Below, piece by piece: positions 39,989-57,638 of a stretch of DNA of 64,000 nt. The stretch comes from a bacterium (lineage in GTDB: Bacteria; Elusimicrobiota; Elusimicrobia; Elusimicrobiales; UBA9959), in the NCBI GenBank assembly GCA_021786295.1, contig JAJYNO010000024.1, positions 190,214-254,213 of the forward strand. The letters are read 5' to 3'. Both the position numbers and the translations under genes were made by a program. The notes below the pieces were generated by a model, which was not told where the DNA came from, did not search any database, and was given only the letters and a program-made list of their open reading frames with translations. The first letter of the stretch is position 1, and each line of letters begins with the position of its first letter.

Positions 39989-40018
39989 ATGCAGGGGATT
40001 TCTTATAATAGAGAGGCG

Positions 40019-41287
40019 ATGAGAAGGCTATACCTAGCGGCAGCGGCGGCTCTGGGAATGTTATTATTCTCCGGAGCGGCTTCGGCTTTCGACCTGCCCG
40101 GACTGACCGCGGCGGACATCAGCGCGACAAGCCGGGCCCCGGCCGCTGGGCGCCCGGCACCGCAGGAGCGGGATTGGACCGTCATGGTCTACCTCAACGC
40201 GAAGAACAACCTCGAGGAGGCCGGGCTCAAGGACCTCAACGAGATGGAGAGCGCCGGTTCCACCGCCAAGGTGGCCATAGTGGCCGAACTGGGCCGCGTT
40301 AAAGGCTACTACGACGGGGACGGCGACTGGACCGGCGTGAGGCGCTACCTGGTGCAAAAGGACGCCGACATGTCGCATATAGCTTCCCCAGTGCTGGCGG
40401 ACCTGGGCGCGACCGACATGGGAGATTACCGCACGGCCGAGGATTTCGTCCGCTGGGCGAAGGAAAACTACCCTGCCCGTCATTATTTGCTGATAGTCTG
40501 GGACCACGGCTCCGGCTGGACCAGGTCGGCGGCTGTTTCCCGCGGCATCTCCTACGACGACGGGAGCGGGAACCACATGACGGTGCCGCAGCTGGCCGCT
40601 GTGCTCAAGGACTCGGGCGGGGCCGACATCTACGCTTCTGACGCCTGCCTGATGCAGATGGCGGAAGTCGCCGGAGAGCTGAGGGACCACGCCGCCTATA
40701 TCGTAGGCTCGGAGGAGACCGAGCCGGCCGACGGCTACCCGTACGACGCTATCCTGGCCAAGCTGGACGCCGACCCAGCCATGACGCCGCGCGAGCTGGC
40801 CGGGACCATCGTGAACGCCTACGGCGGCTACTACTCCGCGCGCGGCACAGGCGCGACCCTCAGCGCGCTGGATACCGCCGCTTTCCCGGAGTTCCTGCGC
40901 CTGACGGGGGCCTTCGTCTCCGCGGCGGAGGCCGCCGGGGACAGGGGCGTAATAAAGCGCGGCCTCTACTACGCCCAGCATTACTCCTACGAGGACAACA
41001 AGGACCTGGACTCCTTTCTGGCCTATGTCGCCGCCAAATCCCGTTCGCAGACGGTAAAGGACGCGGCCGGCGCCCTGCAGGCGCAACTGCGCGGGCGCCT
41101 GGTGGCGTTCAAGGCCGCGGCCGACTATGCCGCTGTCCCGGACGGCATGGAACAGACAGACTACACCCGGGCCGGAGGCCTGGCGGTCTACCTGCCAGGC
41201 AGCGTACCCGCCGCCGGCTATTCCGGCCTGCGCTGGGCCGCGGATTCAGGCTGGGGCGGCTTCCTGGACTGGACAGTACATAAATGA
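40019..41287 (+). CDS. Secreted clostripain-like (peptidase family C11, clan CD) cysteine protease
   Basis: Signal peptide; DWTVMVYLNAKNNLEEAGLKDLNEME, LLIVWDHGSGW (catalytic His), IYASDACLMQMAEVAGEL (catalytic Cys), IVGSEETEPADGYPYDAIL. Confidence 0.9.
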   Translation: MRRLYLAAAAALGMLLFSGAASAFDLPGLTAADISATSRAPAAGRPAPQERDWTVMVYLNAKNNLEEAGLKDLNEMESAGSTAKVAIVAELGRVKGYYDGDGDWTGVRRYLVQKDADMSHIASPVLADLGATDMGDYRTAEDFVRWAKENYPARHYLLIVWDHGSGWTRSAAVSRGISYDDGSGNHMTVPQLAAVLKDSGGADIYASDACLMQMAEVAGELRDHAAYIVGSEETEPADGYPYDAILAKLDADPAMTPRELAGTIVNAYGGYYSARGTGATLSALDTAAFPEFLRLTGAFVSAAEAAGDRGVIKRGLYYAQHYSYEDNKDLDSFLAYVAAKSRSQTVKDAAGALQAQLRGRLVAFKAAADYAAVPDGMEQTDYTRAGGLAVYLPGSVPAAGYSGLRWAADSGWGGFLDWTVHK

Positions 41288-42444
41288 ACTTCGTCTTCCT
41301 CTCGCCGCACTTCCCGCCGAACTACAGGTATTTCTGCCGCGCCCTCAGGGCGGCTGGCTTCAACGTCCTGGGCATAGGCGACGCCGACTTCGGCGCGCTG
41401 CGCCCGGAGCTGGCCTCAGCGCTCACCTGGTACTACCGGGTGGGGAACATGCATAATTACGACGAACTGCGCGGGGCCTGCCGCTTCTTTACGGACCGCT
41501 TCGGCCCCATCGCCAGGCTCGACTCGCTCAACGAGTACTGGCTGGAGACGGAGGCGGCGCTGCGCACGGAATTCGGCATAGCCGGGATACACGACGACAC
41601 GATAGCCGACATACGGCACAAGTCCAGGATGAAGCGGATATTCTCGGCGGCCGGCATACCGCACGCCCGGGGCAGGCTGGTCCGCACGCTGGAGGAACTG
41701 AGGGATTTCGCCTCCTGGACCGGGTTCCCGGTGATCGTAAAGCCCGATGACGGCATGGGTGCGGCCCTGACCTACAAACTGACGGACGGCGCGCAGCTGG
41801 AGACGTTCTTTTCCTCCAAGCCTGACAGGGAGTTCATAGCCGAGGAGTACATATCCGGCGATATCGTCACTTTCGACGGGCTGGCCGACAGGGAAGGGGG
41901 GGTGGCCTTCTGCACCTCCCACGTCTACGGCGAGAGCGTCATGGAGGCCGTGCTCGCGGACTCCCATGTCTCCTATTACTCGGAACGAAATATCCCCGCG
42001 GACCTGGAACTGGCCGGCCGCAGGCTGGTGGAGGGGTTCGGGGTCAGGGAGCGCTTTTTCCACTTCGAGTTCTTCCGGCGGCCCGACGGGGCTTTGTACG
42101 CCCTCGAGGCCAACATCAGGCCGCCTGGCGGCTTCACGATGGACATGTTCAATTACGCCTGCGACATAGACATGTATTCCGCCTGGGCGCGCATGATGGC
42201 CGGGGAGGACCTGCGCCTGGACTACACCCGCAAGTACCATTGCTGCTACGCCGGCCGCAAGCGCAGGCTCGTCTACCGCCATTCCCGCGAGGAGGTGGAA
42301 CGCCGCCTTGGCGCGGCGGTCGTGATGAGGGAAGAGCTGCCGCCGGTGCTGGCCCGCGCTATGGGGGATTGCGGCTATGTAGTGCGCTCCCCCGACCGCG
42401 CCTTCATCCTAGGCGCCATCCGCCTCATCCAGGAACCCGCCTGA
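41284..42444 (+). CDS. ATP-grasp domain protein (carboxylate-amine ligase-like)
   Basis: GFPVIVKPDDGMGAALTYKL, REFIAEEYISGDIVTFDG, FFHFEFFRRPDGALYALEANIRPPGGFTMDM; ATG overlaps C11 protease stop. Confidence 0.85.
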   Translation: MNFVFLSPHFPPNYRYFCRALRAAGFNVLGIGDADFGALRPELASALTWYYRVGNMHNYDELRGACRFFTDRFGPIARLDSLNEYWLETEAALRTEFGIAGIHDDTIADIRHKSRMKRIFSAAGIPHARGRLVRTLEELRDFASWTGFPVIVKPDDGMGAALTYKLTDGAQLETFFSSKPDREFIAEEYISGDIVTFDGLADREGGVAFCTSHVYGESVMEAVLADSHVSYYSERNIPADLELAGRRLVEGFGVRERFFHFEFFRRPDGALYALEANIRPPGGFTMDMFNYACDIDMYSAWARMMAGEDLRLDYTRKYHCCYAGRKRRLVYRHSREEVERRLGAAVVMREELPPVLARAMGDCGYVVRSPDRAFILGAIRLIQEPA

Positions 42445-44458: not shown

Positions 44459-44487
44459 AAAAGGCGGCCTGAAAGGCCGCCTTTTTT
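44459..44487. terminator. Bidirectional Rho-independent terminator between convergent genes
   Basis: aaaaggcggcctgaaaggccgcctttttt. Confidence 0.85.
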
Positions 44488-44504: not shown

Positions 44505-45233
44505 CTAGTTCGCAGCCCCGCCCTCAGGTTTTTTCTTGGCGAGCAGGCCGTGCACCAGGAAGTAGGCGACCATGCCGGCCAGCAGGACCTGCGTGGCGTA
44601 GAAATAATTGGCGCCGGAATAGCTGTACAGCTCGTCGAACCTGCCGTAGAGCAGCGAGAAACGGGCCATCACGGTATTGCCGAAGGTGGTGCCGAAGTAG
44701 GCCATCAGGAAGTAGATGCCGATGTTAGAGATCTTCTTGACCGCGCCCTTGTTCTCCACGGAGAAGAAGAAATAGAACAGCACGGCTATCGTGCCGACGG
44801 CGACGATCAGCGAGTTCAGCATCCCCAGACGCGTCATATGGGAGACGTCCGTGAACGGCTGGATGCAGCCGTAGATCTGGCTCATGAAGTTGGTGGACAG
44901 CATCGTCGGGATGGCGAGGCCCGCTCCGTAGCCCATCAGGAACGTAAAGCCGTAGCGCGAGACCCAGGAGATCTTCGGGAAGAACTGCGTGACCAGAGAG
45001 ACGCCCAGGACCGCCGGCACCAGCACCGCCCATTGGTGGGCGCGCAGCGGGTCCGCCACCTTGGGGATCCAGATGCTGTACAGGTAGACCTGGAACCACC
45101 AGCCCATGCCGGCGCCCAGGTAGAGGTGCTCGGCTATCTTGAAGAACGGGTTGTCCTTGTAAAGGAAACTGAAAATGAAGATGGTGAGCCCCGCGGCCAG
45201 CCACCCTCCCGCGATCATCCATGTATGTGACAT
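44505..45233 (-). CDS. Uncharacterised polytopic membrane protein (cassette gene 4 in transcription order)
   Basis: About seven hydrophobic segments; MSHTWMIAGGWLAAGLTIFIFSFLYKDNPFFKIAEHLYLGAGMGWWFQVYLYSIWIPKVADP. Ends in TAG. Confidence 0.7.
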   Translation of the reverse strand: MSHTWMIAGGWLAAGLTIFIFSFLYKDNPFFKIAEHLYLGAGMGWWFQVYLYSIWIPKVADPLRAHQWAVLVPAVLGVSLVTQFFPKISWVSRYGFTFLMGYGAGLAIPTMLSTNFMSQIYGCIQPFTDVSHMTRLGMLNSLIVAVGTIAVLFYFFFSVENKGAVKKISNIGIYFLMAYFGTTFGNTVMARFSLLYGRFDELYSYSGANYFYATQVLLAGMVAYFLVHGLLAKKKPEGGAAN

Positions 45234-45251
45234 ATCGTTAGATCCTTTCCG

Positions 45252-46076
45252 TTAAAGGTACTTCACCAGGAACAGCCCCAGGTTGGAGAAGACTATCAGG
45301 ACCACGACCAGGATGTGGGCCAGGTTGAGCGCGTCTATGCCGGAAGTCCCCTTGCCGGGCGCGTTCAGCAGGGTCTCGTAGTCGGCCGCGCCCTTCATGC
45401 CGCCGATAAGGCCCTTGAGCTGCCCGGTCTGCAGGTACGGGCCGTAGCTGGGCTGGCTTATGGCGGTGACGCCGGCGGCCAGCGGCACGTTGTACTTGTC
45501 CCCGGCGTACTGCACCCAGATGTCTATCGAGGAGGTGCCGGTGACGTCCACCACCAGGCCCATATCCTTATAGTTGGTAATGCCCTTCATGACAGGCAGC
45601 GAGGCCGCCTCGTTGCCGTACTTGTCCTTGTCGTAGATGCCGTACAAATTGGAGGCCATCTGGGTCAGCACGGCCACGATGTTGGGCTCGTAGGGAAAGA
45701 TCACGTAGTCCTTGCCGTACACTTTGTTGTACTGCTTGGAAAGCGTGGAGAACACCTCGTCTATAAGGCCGGTGGAGCCGGGGATGAAGGTGACCACGCC
45801 CACGCGCAGATTGCGCTCGAACGCTTGCCGCACCAGGGCCATCGCCTGGGGATGCAGCTCCGGGCGCGTAGAGGGGTCGTAATCCAGCGACAGCAGGATG
45901 AACGAGCCCGGCGGCAGCGAGTTCATCTTTTCGTAGACGTGCCTGACGTCGGCGGAGATGTTCTTGTTGGGCAGCCCCAGCGGCCTGACTATCGGGATGA
46001 AGATGCTCAGGGCCAGCAGCAGGAACAGCCATCTCCTGTCTATGTTGAAAAGCAGTTCGAGGGTCTTTTTAAGCAT
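45252..46076 (-). CDS. Uncharacterised protein, soluble domain between N- and C-terminal TM helices (cassette gene 3)
   Basis: RRWLFLLLALSIFIPIVRPLGLP ... PSYGPYLQTGQLKGLIGGMKGAADYETLL ... LAHILVVVLIVFSNLGLFLVKYL. Confidence 0.7.
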   Translation of the reverse strand: MLKKTLELLFNIDRRWLFLLLALSIFIPIVRPLGLPNKNISADVRHVYEKMNSLPPGSFILLSLDYDPSTRPELHPQAMALVRQAFERNLRVGVVTFIPGSTGLIDEVFSTLSKQYNKVYGKDYVIFPYEPNIVAVLTQMASNLYGIYDKDKYGNEAASLPVMKGITNYKDMGLVVDVTGTSSIDIWVQYAGDKYNVPLAAGVTAISQPSYGPYLQTGQLKGLIGGMKGAADYETLLNAPGKGTSGIDALNLAHILVVVLIVFSNLGLFLVKYL

Positions 46077-46079
46077 GGG

Positions 46080-46748
46080 TCAATCCTTGCCGAGGTACTG
46101 GCGCTCGATGCCGAAGACGATCTTGAGGGAGGTGACCACCGCGCCCACGGCGATGCCTATCATGATGCCGCGCTTGCCGGCCACCGAGGGGACGTCCACG
46201 ATCCAGTTCATCAGGCCGGACAGGGAATGGCCGGTCCAGCCCAGCGCCTTGCCCCAGAGGATCTCTCCTATCGGCACGCGGCCCAGTATGAGTATCAGCG
46301 CGGCCACGAACAGCACCATGGCCTGGACGGACTTGATCCTGAAGGAGCGGTAGGCGGTGGAGACTATGTAGAAGGCCAGCACCGCGAACATCGTGGCCAG
46401 CAGCGTGTTGTAGATGTAGCGGAACGACCAGCCGAGCGGCGTCATCTCCGAGCCGGACATCTGCCGGCCGTGGCTGACTATGGCCGGAACGACCACGGCC
46501 AGGAAACCGACGAAGACGAAGAGGCTGTAACCCCAGCCGTCGCCCTTCTTCTTGATCTTGGCGTAGTGCGTGTAGAACAGGCTGAACAGGCCCAGCAGGA
46601 AGGCGAAGGAGGAGACTATGTTCTCCCACTGGCTGACGGTGTCCAGGAAGGCCACCGACTTCGGATGCGGCACGTAGTAAGAGACCAGCGTCAGCATGCC
46701 GAACACGAAGACTATCGCGAAAGGGATCTGTTTCTTTATCAGTTTCAT
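46080..46748 (-). CDS. Uncharacterised polytopic membrane protein (cassette gene 2)
   Basis: About six TM segments, MKLIKKQIPFAIVFVFGMLTLVSYYVPHPKSVAFLDTVSQWENIVSSFAFLLGLFSLFYTHYAKIKKKGDGWGYSLFVFVGFLAVVVPAIV. Confidence 0.7.
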   Translation of the reverse strand: MKLIKKQIPFAIVFVFGMLTLVSYYVPHPKSVAFLDTVSQWENIVSSFAFLLGLFSLFYTHYAKIKKKGDGWGYSLFVFVGFLAVVVPAIVSHGRQMSGSEMTPLGWSFRYIYNTLLATMFAVLAFYIVSTAYRSFRIKSVQAMVLFVAALILILGRVPIGEILWGKALGWTGHSLSGLMNWIVDVPSVAGKRGIMIGIAVGAVVTSLKIVFGIERQYLGKD

Positions 46749-46749
46749 G

Positions 46750-48033
46750 TCAGTTGGCCTTGAAGATGTCGGTGACGAAGTTGACCAGGCTGTGCCAGTG
46801 CTGCCATTGCCCCAGCAGCACCAGGACCAGGCCTATCGAGACCCCGAGCATCACCACCAGCTTGCCGAAGTCCTGCACCTTCAGCGCCGAGAGGAGCATG
46901 GGCTCCTTCGAGAGGTAGGCGCCTGCCGCGTAGAGTTCCTCGCCGATCAGCGTGTAGTCGCAGGAGGTGAAGAAGAAGGGCAGCTGGTACTCTATGTCGG
47001 TCCCGGCTATCTGTATGGCTCCGCTTGCCGCGCCGACCTCTGAGAGCAGCAGGGACTCCGCCATGAAGTAACCCATGAAGAAGCAGGCGGCCGGCTTCTC
47101 GCGCGTGATCATGCCGTCTATCGAGGCGGCATAGGAGAACTGGTCCTGGCTTATGAACTGGTTGATATCCTCGCGGTAGGAGTCCGGGCGGCCGGCCTCC
47201 AGGTAGGACTGCTTGACGACCTCCTTGCAGACCGTCATCACGATGGGGTCGTAGTGCGGCACCTTGATGAAACTGTCGTACTGGGCGACCTTCTTCGAGA
47301 CCTCGCCCAGAATGAAGGTGGACGCTATCGTGGAAACCAGTGTCATGTCGCCGATGCCTGGCACGTAGTAGATGGGCTTGCCCATCTCGGTCGCGCGGCC
47401 GATGGCCTCGTCGATGGCGTCCAGGCCCGCGATGCGGCGGATGAACAGGCCCTTGCGCTTGGCGTGCGAGACGGCCAAGAAGAAGACGATCACGATGATG
47501 ATGAGCATCACCAGGTTGTTCAGACGGTCCAGGCGGAACCAGTTGCCGTAAGCGCGCGCCGTCTTGACCTCGGACTCCGCCACCTCGGCTCCGTTCTGCA
47601 GCACCGACACCTTGACCCGGTAGACGGTTCCCGGGGAAGCGTCCCCGAAAAGCCCGTTCAGGTCCAGCCGCAGCGCGTGCTCGGAAGCGCTCCCGTCCCA
47701 GGCCCAGAAAGGAAGATCTATGTCGGTCCCCTTGTTGGCGGAGGCGGGGAACTCGGTCCCCTGGAGCCAGCCGCCCTTCTCCTGGCTGGAGATATAGACG
47801 CGGTAGGAAGTGCCAGAGTCGTCCGCCGGGTTCACGGGCCAGCGCAGCAGCAGCGCCCCTCCGACGTCGTAAGGCATGTCCTCGGCCACGAGCCCCACGG
47901 TGCGCGGCGCGGGCGAGGCCTTCGCCGCCGGCCTGGAGACCGGCTTGGCGTGCCCGGCCGGCTTAGCCGCCAGGACAGGGGCCGCGGCTAAAAAGAGAGT
48001 GAAAAGACCGCAGACGATTCTGTTATTTTTCAT
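46750..48033 (-). CDS. Uncharacterised membrane protein: signal peptide, FN3-like ectodomain, TM, large soluble domain, TM (DUF6754-like by recollection, unverified; cassette gene 1)
   Basis: DVGGALLLRWPVNPADDSGTSYRVYISS... (FN3-like), LNNLVMLIIIVIVFFLAVSHAKRKGLFIRRIAGLDAIDEAIGRATEMGKPIYYVPGIGDMTLVSTIASTFILGEVSKKVAQYD. Confidence 0.65.
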   Translation of the reverse strand: MKNNRIVCGLFTLFLAAAPVLAAKPAGHAKPVSRPAAKASPAPRTVGLVAEDMPYDVGGALLLRWPVNPADDSGTSYRVYISSQEKGGWLQGTEFPASANKGTDIDLPFWAWDGSASEHALRLDLNGLFGDASPGTVYRVKVSVLQNGAEVAESEVKTARAYGNWFRLDRLNNLVMLIIIVIVFFLAVSHAKRKGLFIRRIAGLDAIDEAIGRATEMGKPIYYVPGIGDMTLVSTIASTFILGEVSKKVAQYDSFIKVPHYDPIVMTVCKEVVKQSYLEAGRPDSYREDINQFISQDQFSYAASIDGMITREKPAACFFMGYFMAESLLLSEVGAASGAIQIAGTDIEYQLPFFFTSCDYTLIGEELYAAGAYLSKEPMLLSALKVQDFGKLVVMLGVSIGLVLVLLGQWQHWHSLVNFVTDIFKAN

Positions 48034-48128
48034 AACTTAATTAGATGATACAATTAATGTTTTTTCCAGGCAAGGAGAAAACCGGCTTCGGCCCGACGAC
48101 GGGTAAAGGGAGGGGGGAGCGGGCCGCC

Positions 48129-49127
48129 TCAGACGTACGGGCAGGCGGCGAAATGACCTGGCCCCTTCTCCTGCAGTTCGGGCGCGCGGAGGGCGCATTC
48201 CGGCCTGGCCATGGGACAGCGCGTGCGGAAGCCGCACCCGGAAGGCTTGGCCAGCGGGCTGGGCACGTCGCCCTTCAGGATGATCCTGCCCCCGCGCTTC
48301 TTTGACGGGTCCGGCTGGGGGGCGGCCGACAGAAGGGCCCGTGTGTAGGGGTGCAGCGGGTTCTTGTTGATGTCGCGGCTGGAGCCGATCTCCACCATGT
48401 TCCCCAGGTACATCACGGCGATGCGGTCGCTGATGTGCTCGACCACGGAGAGGTCGTGCGCGATGAAGAGATAGGTGAGTTTGAACTCCTCCTGCAGGTC
48501 CTGCAGCAGGTTGATGATCTGGGCCTGGATGGAGACGTCGAGCGCGCTGACGGGCTCGTCGGCGATGATGAAGGCCGGGTTGGTGGCGAGCGCCCTGGCC
48601 AGGCCGACGCGCTGGCGCTGGCCGCCGGAGAACTCGTGCGGATAGCGGGAGGCGTAGGCCGCCTGCAGGCCGACCTTCTCCAGCAGCCAGGCGACGCGCT
48701 CCTTCCTCTCCGCGCGCTTCATGCCGGGCATGTGGATATCCAGCGGCTCGCCGATGATGGCCTCCACCGACATGCGGGGGTTGAGCGAAGAGTACGGGTC
48801 CTGGAAGACCATCTGCATGCGGGAGCGGAAGGGGCGCATGGCGGCCCGGCTAAGGTTGGCGATGTCCTGCAGCTTCCCGTCGGCCCCCGGGAACAGCACG
48901 CTGCCCGAGGTGATAGGAGCCAGGTTGACCAGAGCCTTGCCTATCGTGGTCTTGCCGCAGCCGGATTCGCCCACCATGCCCAGCGTCTCGCCGGGCCTCA
49001 CGGAGAAGGAGACGCCGTCCACGGCCTTCACCTCGCCGGTCTTCCTGAGGAAGATGCCGCCGTGGACGGGAAAATGGACCTTGAGGTCCTTCACCTCGAG
49101 CATGTTGCCTGAAACCGCCGGCGTCAT
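48129..49127 (-). CDS. Peptide ABC transporter ATPase (OppF/DppF-type)
   Basis: [51 protein letters not shown]-terminal Cys-rich oligo_HPY region [15 protein letters not shown]. Start trimmed to MTPAVSGN. Confidence 0.93.
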
Positions 49128-50125
49128 GACGAAGCCCCCTTTTCCGGCCTGCAGAGATGACAGCGCACCTGCCGGCCGGGAGAGACCTCCGCTAGCTCTG
49201 GCTCGGTCTCGCGGCAGACCTTCACCGCGTGCGGACAGCGGGTGTTGAACTTGCAGCCTTTCGGGAAATGCATGATGTCCGGCACCATACCCTCTATGAC
49301 GGGCAGGCGCCTGGCGCCCTCGTTGTGGAAACCGGGCAGCGAGCGCAGCAGACCCTGCGTGTAGGGATGCAGCGGCTTCTCGAAAAGAGGTCCGACCTCC
49401 GCCACCTCCTGTATCAGGCCCCCGTACATCACGCACACGCGCTGGCAGGTCTCGGCCACGACGGCCAGGTCGTGGGTTATAAGCAGGATCGCGGCGTCGT
49501 CGGTCTTCTTCTTTACGTCGAGCATCAGTTCCAGGATCTGGGCCTGGATCGTCACGTCGAGCGCGGTGGTAGGCTCGTCGGCTATCAGCAGGGCGGGGTC
49601 GGAGGCCAGCGCCATGGCTATCATCACCCGCTGGCGCATGCCGCCGGAGAACTGGTGCGGGTAGTCCTTCAGACGGGCCTTAGGGGAAGGGATGCCGACG
49701 AGGCCGAGCATCTCCACCGCGCGGGCCTCCACCTGCCTCTCGCTCAGGTCCTGGTGGAAGCGGATGGCCTCCTTGAGCTGCCAGCCGACCGAGAAGACCG
49801 GGTTCAGCGAGGTCATCGGCTCCTGGAAGATCATCGAGATGTCCTTGCCCCGCACCTTACGCATCTCCTCGTAGGAGAGCTTCAGCAGGTCCCGGCCGCG
49901 GAAGATCATCTCGCCGTCGGTTATCCTGCCCGGCGGGTCCGGGATCAGGCGCAGGATGCTGAGCGCGGTGACGGACTTGCCGCAGCCGGACTCGCCGACG
50001 AGACCGAGCACCTCGTTCTCGTAAATATGGAAGTCCACGCCGTTGACGGCGTGCGCCGTCCGGTTCTCCACCTGGAAGGAGGTGCGCAGACCTTTTATCT
50101 CGAGCAGCTTCTTCTTTACGCTCAT
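49124..50125 (-). CDS. Peptide ABC transporter ATPase (OppD/DppD-type)
   Basis: [76 protein letters not shown]. Confidence 0.94.
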
Positions 50126-50126
50126 A

Positions 50127-51506
50127 TCACCTCAGCCTCGAGAAGACCTTTGGGTCGAAGGCCTCGCGCACGGCCTCGCCTATCTGCACCACCAGGTACA
50201 GCGTTACGGCCAGCGCTATGGAAGGGGTAAGGATCAGGTGCGGGTAGTACTTTATGTACTGCATGCCCTGGTCCATCAGCACGCCCCAGCTGGGCGTCCC
50301 GACCGGCAGGCCGAAGCCGAGGTAGTCCAGCGAGACCAGCTGCCCGACGTAGCCGACTATGGCGAAAGGCGCGAACGTGACCACTGGCACCAGCGAGTTG
50401 GGCAGGATATGCTTCATCATCACGGACCAGTCGCCGGCGCCCATCGCCACTGCGGCCTGCACGTAGTCGCGGGACTTCTCGCGGTAGAACTCTCCGCGGA
50501 TATAATAGGTCATCGAAAGCCAGGAGCTCAGCGCCACGAGCATGATCACCAGCAGCAGGAAGCTGGGCTGCACGATCGAGGCGATGATCATGATGACGTA
50601 CAGGAACGGGATGGAGGCCCAGATCTCTATGAAGCGCTGGATCAGGATGTCCGCCCAGCCGCCGAAGTAGCCCATCACGGCCCCGACCACTATGCCGATG
50701 ACGTAGCCCAGGGCCGAAACGATCAGCGCGAACGAGAGCGAGACCCTGAAGCCGTACACCAGCTGGGCGAAGACGTCGGTAGCGGAGTCGTCCGTGCCCA
50801 GGATGTTCGTCCTGGTGGGTCCGGTGGGGGGGCGGCCCGGCATGTCCATCAGGTGCTCGTACGGGGAATAGGGGTAGAGCGGCATGATGATGGAGGCCTT
50901 GCCGGCCGAGAAGACCTCCTTGGCCTTCTTCAGCGCCGCTATCTCGCTCTCTATGTCCGGCACGGTCTCCTGCAGGTCGCGGTAGTCGAGCCTCTCGTCC
51001 TCGGTGGAGCCGGGGCCGGGCTTCGTGGCGGCTATCTCGGCCTCGGTATCCTTTATCTCCTTCTCCCGCTCCGCGATCTGGCCGTCCAGCAGCGACGGGT
51101 CCTTCACTTCGGCCGCGAACAGCCTGTAATCCACCTCGTCGTCGCCCACCTGGCCGAAGTCGCTCTTGCGGTCGATGTGACGGTGCGATTTCACGAACGG
51201 CAGCCACCCGCCCCATTCCGCGAAAGCGGGGAAAGCGACGCGCCCGTCGTAGTTGATCATCAGCGGTTTGTTGTTGACCAGGAACTCCAGAAAGAAGGAC
51301 AGCACGAACAGCGTAGTGATGATAAGGTAGCTGTAATAGCCGCGCTTGAGGCTCCTGAAGCGCTTCATGCGCTTCTGCCAGTCCGGCGAAGGCTTCATCT
51401 CGAAGCCGAGCGCCCTGCCCGCGGCCGTAAACAGCCAGGGCAGCGCCCTGTGCGTGAAGTAATAGGCCGCCACCAGTATCAGCAGGGTAGTCAGAAGCTT
51501 CGCCAT
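50127..51506 (-). CDS. Peptide ABC transporter permease (YejE/OppC-type) with a charged insertion
   Basis: LTTLFVLSFFLEFLVNNKPLMINYDGRVAFPAFAEW..., PPTGPTRTNILGTDDSATDVFAQLVYGFRVSLSFALI, DYVQAAVAMGAGDWSVMMKHILPNSLVPVVTFAPF. Confidence 0.92.
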   Translation of the reverse strand: MAKLLTTLLILVAAYYFTHRALPWLFTAAGRALGFEMKPSPDWQKRMKRFRSLKRGYYSYLIITTLFVLSFFLEFLVNNKPLMINYDGRVAFPAFAEWGGWLPFVKSHRHIDRKSDFGQVGDDEVDYRLFAAEVKDPSLLDGQIAEREKEIKDTEAEIAATKPGPGSTEDERLDYRDLQETVPDIESEIAALKKAKEVFSAGKASIIMPLYPYSPYEHLMDMPGRPPTGPTRTNILGTDDSATDVFAQLVYGFRVSLSFALIVSALGYVIGIVVGAVMGYFGGWADILIQRFIEIWASIPFLYVIMIIASIVQPSFLLLVIMLVALSSWLSMTYYIRGEFYREKSRDYVQAAVAMGAGDWSVMMKHILPNSLVPVVTFAPFAIVGYVGQLVSLDYLGFGLPVGTPSWGVLMDQGMQYIKYYPHLILTPSIALAVTLYLVVQIGEAVREAFDPKVFSRLR

Positions 51507-51507
51507 G

Positions 51508-52563
51508 TTATTTGGAAAACCTTATCCTCGGGTCCACCAGCGCCCAGACCACGTCGGAGATGATGTTGCCGAAAAGGTCGATCAGCACGAGGAAGACCAT
51601 CGTGCCGAGCACGATGGGGTAGTCGCGCTGGATCAGGGAATTGTAGCCCAGCAGTCCCATCCCGGGGATGTTGCAGGTCTTCTCGATCAGGAAGGAGCCC
51701 GCGAACAGCAGGCCGATGGCCTGGCCTATGCCGACCGTGATCGGGATCAGCGAGTTGCGAAGCGCGTGCACGAAGATCACGCGCTTCTCGGAAAGCCCCT
51801 TGGCGAAGGCGGTGCGCACGTAGTCCGCGCCGAGGTTCTCCAGCAGCGAGTTCTTCATCAGTATCGTCATCGTGGCGAAGCCGCCTATCAGGTAGCCGAA
51901 GACGGGAATGGCAGTGTGCTTGAGCTGGTCCCAGATCTTGGCGAAGAAGCCGAGCTGCGCCCAGTTGGCCGAGCGGAAGCCGCCCAGCGGCAGGATGTTC
52001 AGATAGCTGCCTCCGCCGAGGAAGACCATCAGCATCAGGCAGGCGACGAAGCCGGGGATCGCGTAGCCTATGAAGACCAGCACCGAGGTCCAGGTGTCGT
52101 AGCCGGTCTTGTGCTTTATGGCCTTGGTCACGCCCAGGGGAACGCAGACTATCCACGAAGCGAAATAGCCGATAAGGCCGAAATAGACGGAGATCGGGAA
52201 CTTGGAGACGATGACCTTTAGCACCGGTTCGCCGTAGACGTAGGACTGGCCGAAGTCCAGGTGGAGGATGCCCCAGAGCCAGTAGCCGTAACCGACCGGA
52301 ATGCTCTTGTCCAGGTGGTAGTACTTCTTGAGCTCCTTCATCGCGTCGGCCGGGATCTGCATCTCCGCTTCTTCCCCGGCGATGCCGGCCGCCGCCGCGC
52401 CGCCGCCTTCCTGCATCATGGCCTTGCGCATCTGCATCTGCGCCTGCTCGATGGGGCCGCCGGGCACGACGCGCAGCACCGCGTAGACCATGAAGGTTAT
52501 CGCCAGGAACGTGAGCGGGATCAGCAACAGGCGGCGCACGAAATAGGTGATCATTCCGTTCAT
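51508..52563 (-). CDS. Peptide ABC transporter permease (YejB/OppB-type)
   Basis: MITYFVRRLLLIPLTFLAITFMVYAVLRVVPGGPIEQ, RVIFVHALRNSLIPITVGIGQAIGLLFAGSFLIEKTCNIPGMGLLGYNSLIQRDYPIVLGTMVFL. Confidence 0.93.
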   Translation of the reverse strand: MNGMITYFVRRLLLIPLTFLAITFMVYAVLRVVPGGPIEQAQMQMRKAMMQEGGGAAAAGIAGEEAEMQIPADAMKELKKYYHLDKSIPVGYGYWLWGILHLDFGQSYVYGEPVLKVIVSKFPISVYFGLIGYFASWIVCVPLGVTKAIKHKTGYDTWTSVLVFIGYAIPGFVACLMLMVFLGGGSYLNILPLGGFRSANWAQLGFFAKIWDQLKHTAIPVFGYLIGGFATMTILMKNSLLENLGADYVRTAFAKGLSEKRVIFVHALRNSLIPITVGIGQAIGLLFAGSFLIEKTCNIPGMGLLGYNSLIQRDYPIVLGTMVFLVLIDLFGNIISDVVWALVDPRIRFSK

Positions 52564-52564
52564 A

Positions 52565-54358
52565 TCAGTGGCCGCCCTTGCCGGCCCAGGGCCGCACGTC
52601 CGTAGCTCCTACGGGCAGGCTGGTGTCGTTCTTCTCCGCCGCCTCCAGGGCCTTCTCCTTCCCGGGGTCCAGCCACCAGGTAGAGTAGATGGAGGAATCG
52701 TCGCCGGTCCTGGTGAAGTACGTCTTCGGGTGGCCGAACTTGTCGTAATAGAGCAGCCGGAAGAAATTGGCGCCCCAGCCGAGCGCGTAGGGGTAATCCC
52801 GGAAGATGAGACCGTCTATGCGGTGTATCAACTTCTCCTGCGCGGCCCTGTCGAAGGTGGAATTGTACTCGCGGCTCAGCTTGTCCACCTCCGCGTTCTT
52901 GAAGCCGTTGATGTTGTTGTTGCTGTTCTGGTCGGCCAGCTTGGAATCCCAGGAACTTTCCGGGTTGGGGAACAGCAGGCCGCCCCACGCCTGGTAGACG
53001 AGCGTGAAATCCCGCTCATCCACCTTCTTCATCAGGGTGTCGTAGTCTATCAGCTTCAGGTCCAGCTTTATGCCGGCCCTGGCCAGGTACTCCTGCACCA
53101 CCTTGAAGATGCGGTCCGAGCCCTGGTCGCCGTACTCGAGCGTGACCTCGAAGATCCTGCCGTCCTTCGTCAGCCAGCCGTCCTTGTTCCGGGTCTTCCA
53201 GCCGGCGCGGGCCAGCAGGCGCTTGGCCATGCGCGGGTTGTAGCGGACCTTCGGGTTGTCCGGGTTGGCCCAGACGCTGCCGGGGAAATAGCTGTCCAGG
53301 TAGGAGTACTGGTTGAAGAACAGCTTGTCTATCAGTTTGGCGCGGTTGAACAGCAGCGCGAAGGCCTTGCGCACGTTGCGGTCGTTGAACGGCGGCTTGC
53401 GCATGTTGAAAGCGAAACCGGAGATGCCCTGCGGGTAGTCGTTGTAGATCTTGCGCTTCTGCACCCATCCCATCCGCACCTTGTCGAAGTCGCACTCCTG
53501 CGCCCAGCGCTGGGCCTTGTTGACCACGAAGTAGTCCAGTTCGCCCTTCTTGAACTTCTCGAACGCCAGCGTGTCGTCGCGGATCACCGTCCAGTTGATG
53601 CGGTCGAAGTTATTGAGGCCTATGTTGAAGCGCTCGTCCCGGCCCCAGTAGTTCTTGCGCCGCGTCAGCGTTATGGACTGCTGGTTCCTGATGCCGTCCG
53701 GCCTCAGCTCGTAAGGTCCGGAGCCCATCTGCATCTTCCAGTTGTAGTCCTTCAGGTACCCGTCGCCGGTGAGCTTGTCCATCTCCTTCGCGGGGTAGAT
53801 CAGCATCGTGCCGAAGTAGTAGAAAAGGCGCCAGTCCAGGTGCTTGGCCCGGACCGAGACCACGCCGTCGCCCTGCGCCTCGGGCTGCTCGTAGTTGTCG
53901 TACCAGATCATGCGCGAGTACGGGTCCTTGATATCCTTGCGCACCAGGAACTTCCAGGTGTCCACCACGTCCTTCGGAGTGACCGGCGTGCCGTCGGCCC
54001 AGCGCGCCTTCGGGTTTATATGGAAATAGAACGTGCGCTTGTCGGGGGAGACCTTCCAGTAGTCGGCCAGGTAAGGGATGTACTGCAGCGTCTCGGGATG
54101 CAGGCCTATCAGGGACTCGTAAACCAGGCTCTGCATCTGGCTGGTGGCGAGCTGGTTGGAGTTCGGCCCCTGCGTGCGCAGCGTGGCCGGGAAATCCGAC
54201 CAGTAGGAATGCAGCGTGCCGCCCTTCACCGCCTCCGTGGAGCCCATCAGCGGGAAATCCCTGCTGGTCTGCCAGCCGGCCGGGGCGAAGCCGCCGGAAA
54301 AAGATGGAACGCCGAGCAGCAGCAGGAGGGCGGCGCAGGTCAGACGTTCCTTGAGCAT
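52565..54358 (-). CDS. Extracellular solute-binding protein family 5 (YejA/OppA-like)
   Basis: Signal peptide MLKERLTCAALLLLLGVPSFSGGFA; TFYFHINPKARWADGTPVTPKDVVDTWKFLV; PPFNDRNVRKAFALLFNRAKLIDKLFFN. Start trimmed. Confidence 0.92.
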   Translation of the reverse strand: MLKERLTCAALLLLLGVPSFSGGFAPAGWQTSRDFPLMGSTEAVKGGTLHSYWSDFPATLRTQGPNSNQLATSQMQSLVYESLIGLHPETLQYIPYLADYWKVSPDKRTFYFHINPKARWADGTPVTPKDVVDTWKFLVRKDIKDPYSRMIWYDNYEQPEAQGDGVVSVRAKHLDWRLFYYFGTMLIYPAKEMDKLTGDGYLKDYNWKMQMGSGPYELRPDGIRNQQSITLTRRKNYWGRDERFNIGLNNFDRINWTVIRDDTLAFEKFKKGELDYFVVNKAQRWAQECDFDKVRMGWVQKRKIYNDYPQGISGFAFNMRKPPFNDRNVRKAFALLFNRAKLIDKLFFNQYSYLDSYFPGSVWANPDNPKVRYNPRMAKRLLARAGWKTRNKDGWLTKDGRIFEVTLEYGDQGSDRIFKVVQEYLARAGIKLDLKLIDYDTLMKKVDERDFTLVYQAWGGLLFPNPESSWDSKLADQNSNNNINGFKNAEVDKLSREYNSTFDRAAQEKLIHRIDGLIFRDYPYALGWGANFFRLLYYDKFGHPKTYFTRTGDDSSIYSTWWLDPGKEKALEAAEKNDTSLPVGATDVRPWAGKGGH

Positions 54359-54372
54359 CAGGATGGGCCGCA

Positions 54373-55497
54373 CTATTTCTCCAGCACCTCGATATTGGCG
54401 CGCGGCACCACTATCACCTCTCCGCCCTGCAGCGCCACTTCCAGCACGCGGGCGTGCGATTCGCTGCCTATTACGGTCAGCTCCGGCGGCAGCGACTTTA
54501 CCGTACCTATCACGCCGAAATGCGGCTCGCGGATGATGCGGATCGGGTCTCCGGGCTCTATCCAGCCGCGGCCCTGGTCCTTCTTGCACTCGCTTACGTT
54601 CTTCGGGTAGCCGGGCACGATTATCTCCGGGCGCATAACGCCGGCGCGTATCTGCGTCGCGCCGGAGACGGAGGCCTTCTCGCCGTTGCGCGACGAGAGG
54701 AGCCTGAAGGTGTACTCCGCCATCGGGATCATGCCGAACCCCTCCGTGACCACCAGCGTGGTGCCGATCTGCTCGGTGCCAGTCACGGCCACTCCGATGT
54801 CGTAGCCCAGCAGTTGGCGCAGGTCGCGGTCGTGGATGCCGCCCACCACCACGGCCTTGACTCCCATCGAGACGGCGCGCTTGATGGCGCCCAGGCCGGC
54901 GTGCTTGCCGCCCACCACTATCTTGCCGCGGTGGTGTTCGGTGATATCCTCCTCCACCAGCTCCTCGTCGGGGCTCGAGACGGCCACGGCGATCTCGCCG
55001 TTGGTCTCGCCGCCGATGCCGAAGATGCCCTGTATGAAGGTGCCTTCGGACTCCACCGTGACGCCGAAATCCGGGACGACCTCCACCACCCTGCCCTTCA
55101 CGTAGGCCTGTATCGGGAGCACCTTGGGAGGCTCGCGCAGCATCACCTGCCCGGTGACGTCGGAGACGGACTCCACGGTGCCCGCCACCGGGGACTCCAC
55201 GGAGGTCTTGAACCACTTGATGAAAGGCTTGTTCTCGGCCAGGACCTCCCCGGCCTTTATCTCGTCGCCCTCCTTCTTGAGCATGAAGTTCTTTATCTCG
55301 CCGGGGGCGACGGACAGGCGGTTGGCCACGTTCACAGGGAACACCTTGCCGGGCAGCTCGGTACGGGCCACCACGTCGGTAGAGCCGACTTCGTCGCCCA
55401 CGGAGGCCAGCACTTTGCCGGGTATGGGCAGCAGGCGCTTCTTCCTGAGCACCGTGCATGGCATTACCTTGAGTCCTGGAGTGTATGCGTGAGCCAT
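54373..55497 (-). CDS. Conserved protein with barrel-sandwich (biotinyl/lipoyl or RnfC-like) N-terminus and KOW-like C-terminus, partner of MutL-like protein
   Basis: IKNFMLKKEGDEIKAGEVLAENK...VESPVAGTVESVSDVTGQVMLREPP; C-terminal WIEPGDPIRIIREPHFGVIGTVKSLPPELTVIGSESHARVLEVALQGGEVIVVPRANIEVLE. Confidence 0.65.
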   Translation of the reverse strand: MAHAYTPGLKVMPCTVLRKKRLLPIPGKVLASVGDEVGSTDVVARTELPGKVFPVNVANRLSVAPGEIKNFMLKKEGDEIKAGEVLAENKPFIKWFKTSVESPVAGTVESVSDVTGQVMLREPPKVLPIQAYVKGRVVEVVPDFGVTVESEGTFIQGIFGIGGETNGEIAVAVSSPDEELVEEDITEHHRGKIVVGGKHAGLGAIKRAVSMGVKAVVVGGIHDRDLRQLLGYDIGVAVTGTEQIGTTLVVTEGFGMIPMAEYTFRLLSSRNGEKASVSGATQIRAGVMRPEIIVPGYPKNVSECKKDQGRGWIEPGDPIRIIREPHFGVIGTVKSLPPELTVIGSESHARVLEVALQGGEVIVVPRANIEVLEK

Positions 55498-55531: not shown

Positions 55532-57325
55532 TCAGACGGGGTACATCCCCATGGCCTTGTACCACTTGTTAAGGTCGGCGCGGCGGCGGGAGGCGTCCTT
55601 GGCGAGGCTGAAAGGCCTGCCGCGCCCGTCGAGCACCAGCCCGACCACGCCGCCCTCTATTTCGGCCTCCACCCTGTTGCCGGAGCCCGAGCCCATATCG
55701 AACCCTTTCACGGGCCTGGCTGAGAGCTTGGCCTTGGGCGCGTCGAACGGGATATGCTGCATCTCGCCGAAGCGCAGTTCTCCGCCCTGCTTCCTGCCGT
55801 CCGGGGTCGTGACCTCCCAGTCCATGATCTTCTCGCCCTCCTTGCCCAGGCCCTTCGGGGCCAGGCAGGTGCCCAGGCGCACCAGGCAGTCGTGATAGAA
55901 GACGTCCAGCGCGGCCTTTTCGCTGATCTGGGCCAGCACGCCCAGATGGGGCATCATGAAGATGGAGTCCACGGCCATGCGGGTCACGCCCTCCGGCTGG
56001 TAGGCGTCTATCATCATCAGCATCGACTGTGTGCGGCGGGGGGAATGGGCCAGGATGCCGCCGGAGCCTATGACGTAGTCCAGCTTCATCACGCTGATCA
56101 GGCTCTGGCCGGAGGCGGTCTGTTCGAAAGCGTCGGAGATCGAGCGCTCCTGCTGCACGCCTTTCAGCCCTACGGCCAGCGCCTTGTGCTGGTCGAAAGC
56201 CAGGCGCAGCGCCTCGCGGGAGACGGCGTGCTCGATCTGCAGGTCCTCGATGGTCTGCGGGATCGTGGTCGGCCGTATCATCTTGTTCTTCAGGCGGTTC
56301 CTGAGGTCCTGTTCCTCTATGTCGAACGGCAGCCAGCGCAGGATGTTTGCCAGGCCCGCCTCTGCCATCACGTTGGAGATAGAGTAGCTCATGCCGAGGT
56401 TCGCGCTGACCGTGCGGTTGAAGACCTCGCCGAAGACGCTGAACACGTCGGTGGTGGCGCCTCCGATATCGACGGCCAGCACGTTGAAATTGTTGGCCTT
56501 GGCGAACTTCTCCGTCATCGAACCGACGGCGGCCGGGGTGGGCATGATAGGCGCCCCGACCATCTTCATCAGCTTCGGATAGCCGGGCGCCTGCTGCATC
56601 ACGTGCTCCAGGAAGATGTCGTGGATCTTGTGGCGCGCCGGCATCAGGTTCTCGCGCTCGAGCGAAGGGCGCAGGTTCTCGGTCACGATCAGGGCGGTGC
56701 GGTCGCCGAGTATCTCGGTTATCTGCGGCCGCGCCTTGTTGTTGCCGGCGTAGATCACCGGCAGCTTGTACGAGGCGCCGAGACGCGGCTTCGGATCGGC
56801 CGCCTTCAGGAACTGGGCCAGCTCAACGACGTGCGTCACGGTGCCGCCGTCGGTGCCGCCGGAGAGCAGCATCATGTCGGGGCGCAGCTGGCGGATGCGC
56901 TCTATTTTCTCGTGGTCGGCGCGGCCGTCGTTGGAGGCCAGCACGTCCATCACGATGGCGCCGGCGCCGAGCGCGCAGCGCTGCGCGCTCTCTCCGGTCA
57001 TCGCCTTCACGGCGCCGGCCACCATCATCTGCAGGCCGCCGCCCGCCGAAGAAGTGGAGACGTAGATGTCCACTCCGGTCTTGCCGTCGTTGGGGGTTAT
57101 GATCCTCTCGCCGTCGAGGATCTTGCGGCCGGAGAGTTCCTCCACCTCGGTGATCGCGTTCAGCACTCCTTTCGTGACGTCCTCGAAAGGCGCCTCCACC
57201 GTGGTCGGGGCTTCGCCGCGGAAGGTCTGGCGGTAGGTGTCCCCTTTCTTCTCTATCAGGATGGCCTTGGTCGTGGTGCTCCCGCAGTCGGTAGCGATTA
57301 TGATTTCAAGGTCTTTTTTTGACAT
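55532..57325 (-). CDS. MutL/GlmL-family ASKHA ATPase (glutamate mutase-associated family)
   Basis: IIATDCGSTTTKAILIEK, STSSAGGGLQMMVAGAVKAMTGESAQRCALGAGAIVMDVLA, LLSGGTDGGTVTHVVELAQFLKAADPKPR, VLAVDIGGATTDVFSVFG. Confidence 0.85.
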   Translation of the reverse strand: MSKKDLEIIIATDCGSTTTKAILIEKKGDTYRQTFRGEAPTTVEAPFEDVTKGVLNAITEVEELSGRKILDGERIITPNDGKTGVDIYVSTSSAGGGLQMMVAGAVKAMTGESAQRCALGAGAIVMDVLASNDGRADHEKIERIRQLRPDMMLLSGGTDGGTVTHVVELAQFLKAADPKPRLGASYKLPVIYAGNNKARPQITEILGDRTALIVTENLRPSLERENLMPARHKIHDIFLEHVMQQAPGYPKLMKMVGAPIMPTPAAVGSMTEKFAKANNFNVLAVDIGGATTDVFSVFGEVFNRTVSANLGMSYSISNVMAEAGLANILRWLPFDIEEQDLRNRLKNKMIRPTTIPQTIEDLQIEHAVSREALRLAFDQHKALAVGLKGVQQERSISDAFEQTASGQSLISVMKLDYVIGSGGILAHSPRRTQSMLMMIDAYQPEGVTRMAVDSIFMMPHLGVLAQISEKAALDVFYHDCLVRLGTCLAPKGLGKEGEKIMDWEVTTPDGRKQGGELRFGEMQHIPFDAPKAKLSARPVKGFDMGSGSGNRVEAEIEGGVVGLVLDGRGRPFSLAKDASRRRADLNKWYKAMGMYPV

Positions 57326-57638
57326 TTGGGTCTTCCTTTCCGGAGGTTTCCTCCCCGAGGCGCCGCGCCAGATAATCCATCGCCTTCGGGTTCTCCAGCA
57401 GAGCTCGGTAGCTGTCTATCTTTTCCTTCTTGAAGATAACCTCGAGGATCGGCGCCAGGAAAGCCGCTCCGCCGGCGCCCAGGCCATGCAGGGGCTTGGT
57501 GCTCTCTACAGAGAAGGAGGCGATATCGCCCAGGCCCCGGGCCCTCACTTTTTCAGCCAGGCCGTCCAGCAGACTTTTCTCCTCTGGGGTCGGCTCGGGC
57601 GGTTCGGGTATCTTGAAAGCGTTGTCCCAGATTCCCAT
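57306..57638 (-). CDS. Small conserved hypothetical protein upstream of MutL-like gene
   Basis: 110 aa, MGIWDNAFKIPEPPEPTPEEKSLLDGLAEKVRARGLGDIASFSVESTKPLHGLGAGGAAFLAPILEVIFKKEKIDSYRALLENP; overlaps MutL-like start. Confidence 0.7.
   Translation of the reverse strand: MGIWDNAFKIPEPPEPTPEEKSLLDGLAEKVRARGLGDIASFSVESTKPLHGLGAGGAAFLAPILEVIFKKEKIDSYRALLENPKAMDYLARRLGEETSGKEDPNVKKRP

Follow-up and report, generated by a model that had tools for sequence, protein, structure and literature searches.

The described systems closest to the locus analysed here are the energy-coupling factor (ECF) transporters, the Nqr/Rnf complexes, the oxaloacetate/methylmalonyl decarboxylase sodium pumps and the GlmL/MutL ATPases. 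For one of its membrane proteins, the product of gene A, the relevant Pfam entry, DUF6754 (PF20539), describes a single domain without assigned function, and does not cover the partner genes reported below (B, C, D, S, E and G), their operon or their topology. The open-access literature yielded no paper that mentions DUF6754 or PF20539 and none on glmL together with Planctomycetes; subscription journals were outside the search. The locus lies in a 64,000-nucleotide stretch of an elusimicrobial draft genome (assembly GCA_021786295.1, contig JAJYNO010000024.1, positions 190,214 to 254,213), hereafter the window. A preliminary description had singled out four of its genes, here A to D, as a compact cassette of membrane proteins. 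We find that these genes very probably belong to one functional unit of seven, S-G-E-A-B-C-D, and that the genes tested are also kept in genomes where the operon has come apart. Our preferred reading, to which we assign a probability of about 0.35, is that the unit encodes an ATPase-energised uptake or transport complex in which several membrane modules share one set of cytoplasmic parts.

The arrangement of A to D in the window was confirmed, with four minus-strand genes separated by 1, 3 and 18 nt (A-B, B-C and C-D, respectively). The idea of a four-gene cassette was not borne out, because three more dedicated genes (S, G and E) accompany them, one encoding an ATPase (Table 1). An all-against-all neighbour comparison, combined with profiles, recovered S, G and E in the same arrangement beside A to D in Elusimicrobiota, Planctomycetota and Bathyarchaeota. 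The usual bacterial order is S-G-E-A-B-C-D, and one archaeal locus reads G-E-A-B-C-D with S nearby. S, the first gene of the conserved order, occupies a position common to all three groups and matched no Pfam family.

That the order A-B-C-D is conserved in two phyla of bacteria and a group of archaea was established by a gene-neighbourhood survey. A first scan of GTDB genomes with A as the query returned 21 loci, from Elusimicrobiota, from one planctomycete with two tandem copies and from two Bathyarchaeota, and in these B, C and D came after A, in order, as far as the contigs extended. When genomes were searched by profile, DUF6754 exceeded its cut-off in 12 Elusimicrobiota out of 120, every one of them from the family to which the window belongs, in 110 of 392 Planctomycetota (about a quarter) and, within the archaeal phylum that includes Bathyarchaeota, in 7 of the 300 genomes. 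Among the loci fetched, 92 distinct A genes (19 from Elusimicrobiota, 51 from Planctomycetota and 22 from Bathyarchaeota) are followed on the same strand by B, C and D, with a median gap of 1 nt and 90% of gaps at or below 30 nt; the exceptions are eight Planctomycetota A genes with room downstream. The archaeal homologues retain this order at identities down to about 19–30%, which establishes, beyond chance, that A to D are real coding sequences.

Phylogenetic profiles were used to compare A-bearing with A-less genomes of the same phylum, and were drawn genome-wide for E, for G (as the MutL family) and for C. E was present in 12/12 A-positive and 0/28 A-negative Elusimicrobiota, a comparison confounded by kinship because all positives are of one family. 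In Planctomycetota, E was found in 34 of 36 A-positive genomes, against a single 28-residue contig-end fragment in 37 A-negative ones, and all seven A-positive Bathyarchaeota carry it. The MutL family behaved similarly: 12/12 A-positive against 0/8 A-negative Elusimicrobiota, 23/24 against 2/20 Planctomycetota, and 7/7 Bathyarchaeota against one sub-threshold match in five A-negative genomes. C was detected in 41 of 41 A-positive genomes and in none of 35 A-negative ones. The two Planctomycetota with a MutL-family gene and no A (G432 and G462) hold, between them, one near-complete gene split over contigs and one weak match, which represent either incomplete assemblies or independent family members.

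Homologues occurring singly would speak against a common function, and some Planctomycetota A genes without adjacent B to D indeed looked like singletons. In all seven Planctomycetota in which C and D do not lie beside A, however, both genes are present elsewhere in the genome. In one of these genomes (G446), a single contig carries A and E at 0.29 Mb, G at 0.79 Mb, D at 2.30 Mb and C at 3.53 Mb. This retention after loss of the operon indicates joint selection on the genes concerned. Thus, of the proposal that A to D encode one co-assembled complex, the part that concerns action as one unit stands, on both conserved order and co-retention; a physical membrane complex is likely, and remains inferential. 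Taken together, the data strongly suggest that the membrane proteins form a complex and that this complex has cytoplasmic partners of its own, an ATPase among them.

Table 1 Features of the seven-gene unit and of the sequences bordering it, in window coordinates.
Feature	Coordinates	Strand	Description
Gene S	57306-57638	minus	110 aa; small protein; 20 nt overlap with the start of G
Gene G	55532-57325	minus	597 aa; MutL/GlmL-superfamily (ASKHA-type) ATPase
Gene E	54373-55497	minus	374 aa; soluble protein, barrel-sandwich and KOW-like
OppABCDF-type peptide ABC transporter	48129-54382	minus	Lies between E and A; PF00496, PF00528, PF00005/oligo_HPY
Gene A	46750-48033	minus	427 aa; DUF6754
Gene B	46080-46748	minus	222 aa; protein with 6 transmembrane helices
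Gene C	45252-46076	minus	274 aa; transmembrane helix, extracytoplasmic alpha/beta domain, transmembrane helix
Gene D	44505-45233	minus	242 aa; protein with about 6-7 transmembrane helices
Bidirectional intrinsic terminator	44459-44487	both	Closes the unit

The terminator, a strong one already recognised in the preliminary description, has the sequence AAAAGGCGGCC-TGAAA-GGCCGCCTTTTTT and folds on both strands (z = -3.3 and -3.5). At the other end, a promoter-like region had been proposed after position 48033. An A+T-rich stretch is indeed found at 48045-48073, and it contains a weak sigma-70-like site (9/12). Nevertheless, the same-strand peptide-transporter genes end only ~95 nt upstream, so the upstream boundary of A to D is not clean.

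Gene A is a full member of DUF6754 (PF20539, E=2.3e-109; 364.9 bits against a gathering cut-off of 27), as the preliminary description had suggested. No family in Pfam or NCBIfam was matched by B, C or D, so the statement that none of the four genes belongs to a functionally characterised family was borne out. The transmembrane (TM) counts obtained from alignment-averaged hydropathy also agree with the topologies proposed earlier: a signal peptide plus two TM helices in A, six in B, two in C and about six to seven in D. The bacterial A protein consists of a signal peptide, an FN3-like ectodomain, a TM helix, a cytoplasmic alpha/beta domain (DUF6754) and a second TM helix. Its alpha/beta domain is placed inside the cell by hydropathy and charge, with positive charges following TM1, whereas by the same reasoning that of C is placed outside. 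B carries an AYRAFRAR-like motif in a cytoplasmic position between TM4 and TM5, and its profile matches adjoin A in archaea and Planctomycetota; in D, residues E35, R93, F155 and G181 are invariant in an alignment of 49 sequences. In one planctomycete (L151:4181-6595), the loop that follows TM3 of B, placed outside the cell by the charge rule, is enlarged by an insert of ~550 aa with many charged residues. B and D are unrelated by sequence comparison.

Structures were predicted with AlphaFold2 as single chains, giving models of high confidence for A (pLDDT 90.4, pTM 0.73) and C (pLDDT 94.4, pTM 0.88). Foldseek matched the ectodomain of the A model to FN3 domains in the Protein Data Bank (PDB), in support of the earlier assignment; archaeal A proteins have no such domain. 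All fold matches listed for the A model are to FN3 domains or to large proteins of several domains, and in none could the DUF6754 domain be recognised. The C model had no match at E<=1e-3 either in the PDB or in a viral fold library, and comparison of A to D with solved structures by sequence gave chance matches only. In these comparisons, by fold for A and C and by sequence for A to D, the four proteins did not match a known transporter or secretion complex. The preliminary description had also suggested a related soluble fold in A and C. Both models show the same order of elements (TM helix, helix, beta/alpha series, TM helix), although profile comparison with hhalign gave no significant support (probability 0.8%). 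A shared soluble fold is thus likely, not proved, from models compared by order of elements and not superposed.

G matches the MutL family PF13941 with E=4.2e-128, and its phosphate motifs D.GSTTTKA and GGATT are conserved across 52 alignment rows. It falls below every NCBIfam GlmL cut-off (233.6 bits against 475 for the equivalog, and 161 against 204 for TIGR01319). E is more conserved than A to D and is composed of a barrel-sandwich domain (RnfC_N/biotin-lipoyl-like), a middle alpha/beta region and a C-terminal KOW-like domain. RnfC_N matches 18 of 22 E proteins (best 7e-6), with the window's E below the cut-off at 18.6 against 25.6 bits, and biotin-lipoyl models match E about as well. The possibility that E is itself a biotinylated protein was rejected because the lysine is not conserved. 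Across the alignments, conserved cysteines are limited to a single near-invariant one in A; B to D have none, and E has no invariant cysteine.

Bathyarchaeota carry 3-7 copies of A and 3-7 of C per genome, alongside one G and one E, except for G121 with two of each; in G369, an additional piece of E is a fragment at the end of a contig, not a second copy. These counts, taken alone, fit one energising G/E set for several membrane modules. The archaeal cassettes fall into classes that keep the same neighbours in different genomes, which suggests that the classes are old and specialised. One archaeal genome holds six cassettes, and in all 15 pairwise comparisons of these, which are not independent of one another, A has diverged less than any other subunit (mean identity 39.8%, compared with 28.6-30.9% for the others). 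Orthologues of A to D are about equally conserved. The low divergence of A among paralogous cassettes is as expected if A makes contact with a G/E set that the modules share.

The peptide ABC transporter between E and A occurs in the window and in some relatives, and is an associated feature rather than a conserved part. Opp genes directly precede A in four loci (L003, L004, L015 and L016), and Opp binding-protein genes adjoin tandem cassettes in Planctomycetota (L020, L114, L182 and L188). In Bathyarchaeota, the cassettes are flanked by genes for amidohydrolase, creatininase-like, nitrilase-like and S-Me-THD-like proteins, acyl-CoA dehydrogenase, aminotransferase and biotin carboxyltransferase. 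One class of these cassettes (L118, L128, L130 and L131) directly follows genes for a biotin carrier protein and a PYC_OADA carboxyltransferase; the sodium-pump subunit OAD_beta was absent from all eight genomes searched, these among them. Elsewhere in the window, a Clostripain-family (Peptidase_C11) protein with a signal peptide is encoded at 39989-41287 on the plus strand, directly after NADH dehydrogenase/hydrogenase-like genes, and is followed at 41284-42444 (plus strand) by an open reading frame of 386 aa that has no Pfam match at 1e-5 and appears ATP-grasp-like by look only.

In the transport complex that we favour, B and D would together form the membrane path, C would present its alpha/beta domain outside the cell, and A would present one of the same topology inside. 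E would dock on A, and G, the ATPase, would drive or reset the complex together with S. In Bathyarchaeota, one G/E set might serve several membrane modules of different specificity, a layout like that of ECF transporters with an ASKHA-type ATPase in place of the ABC ATPase. The substrates may be small nutrients that contain nitrogen or carboxyl groups, for example amino acids, amides or peptides. We infer uptake of small organic nutrients from the two polytopic subunits, the domains on both faces of the membrane, the peptide ABC transporter and the archaeal enzyme neighbours (enzymes that break down amides, amino acids and carboxylic acids), and the one-to-many arrangement. The neighbouring genes provide weak evidence for transport. 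Several observations weigh against this interpretation: A to D have no homology to any transporter, the known proteins related to G reactivate B12 mutases in a chaperone-like manner and are not motors, the neighbouring genes are mixed and were not compared with the genomic background, most Planctomycetota have no recurring metabolic neighbour, and the argument for a shared G/E set is based on counting genes in about seven archaeal genomes that are related to one another.

Some of the facts behind the transport reading suit other explanations as well, in particular a chaperone and an Nqr/Rnf-like pump. G, with E and S, could be a GlmL-like repair or maturation chaperone that uses ATP to reactivate A to D, a membrane enzyme inactivated in catalysis or needing a cofactor, with one chaperone serving several related enzymes. 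The best-known members of PF13941 accompany B12-dependent mutases, enzymes adjoin the archaeal cassettes, and a single G in a genome that has many A-D modules would be expected of a chaperone no less than of an energising module. This explanation is nonetheless unlikely, given that A to D have no conserved cofactor motif and almost no conserved Cys or His clusters, that G is far below the GlmL cut-off, and that the B12-dependent glutamate mutase (PF06368) was not found in the window's assembly, which is 79% complete. We consider it rather less probable that A to D and E form an ion-translocating complex laid out like Nqr/Rnf and powered by ATP or by metabolism (for example decarboxylation), not by NADH. 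The resemblance of E to the RnfC/NqrA barrel-sandwich domain, the conserved charged residues in D, and the cassette class that follows the biotin carrier and PYC_OADA in genomes without OAD_beta would all accord with such a pump. Yet the similarly good biotin-lipoyl matches mean that the similarity of E may be at the level of fold only, there is no Fe-S or flavin motif and no PDB sequence match, and the carboxylase link concerns one cassette class and could reflect an ordinary pyruvate carboxylase.

Membrane-linked ASKHA ATPases are known from envelope and secretion machines, and G could act like the actin-like ATPases PilM and FtsA in a complex for envelope assembly, secretion or protein quality. 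The FN3 ectodomain of bacterial A and the large extracytoplasmic insert in one B would suit such a role. It is quite improbable, as the unit is common to bacteria and archaea with their different envelopes, the FN3 domain is missing from archaeal A, no pilin or secretion gene was seen recurring beside the cassette, and several cassettes in small archaeal genomes would be hard to explain. Finally, the genes could lack a joint function, their order being conserved merely because they spread horizontally in recent times or travel on a mobile element. In a midpoint-rooted tree of E, the archaea form one clade and the Elusimicrobiota form one clade inside Planctomycetota, and because of this nesting the window's copy was probably acquired by horizontal transfer from a planctomycete-like donor. 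As an explanation for the conserved order, however, recent spread is very improbable: order is kept at the low identities noted above, no relative of A or E was found among the plasmid records, phage records and IMG/VR viral contigs searched, which speaks against mobile-element or viral cargo, and the profiles of E, G and C, together with co-retention of scattered genes, contradict it. None of the seven proteins matched a family among the PADLOC defence profiles.

Retention of the unit from Planctomycetota to Bathyarchaeota, even when scattered, makes an important role likely. If the energised transporter is real, a MutL/GlmL-family ATPase acting as a motor would constitute a novel type of primary transport; the transporter might also account for the uptake of organic matter by some small-genome archaea. 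Many near-complete Planctomycetota genomes carry the unit, which is thus open to genetics. We tentatively suggest a new class of energised membrane machine common to bacteria and archaea, in which an ASKHA-type ATPase and a barrel-sandwich adaptor would drive four-subunit modules with matching alpha/beta domains on both faces, one set serving up to seven modules per cell.

The whole seven-gene system matches no described kind that we found, and the ATPase superfamily is the only part with any described function. G belongs with the GlmL/MutL proteins (PF13941, TIGR01319, NF040745 and NF040744) by superfamily and by its intact phosphate motifs, but its partner is a membrane module instead of a B12 mutase and it scores under the GlmL cut-offs. 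With the decarboxylase sodium pumps, the locus has in common the one archaeal cassette class beside a biotin carrier and PYC_OADA; it differs in the absence of OAD_beta (eight genomes) and in that the other cassettes have no biotin or PYC_OADA neighbours. Like Nqr/Rnf, the unit may combine a barrel-sandwich cytoplasmic subunit (E) with two polytopic subunits and anchored soluble domains on both faces, whereas it has an ATPase partner, no Fe-S or flavin motifs, and no detectable homology in A to D. As in ECF transporters, one cytoplasmic module might serve several membrane modules per genome, judging from the bathyarchaeal G/E counts. In contrast to them, the conserved unit has no ABC ATPase (G is its only ATPase) and no homology to EcfT or S components, and it multiplies whole four-gene modules rather than one substrate subunit.

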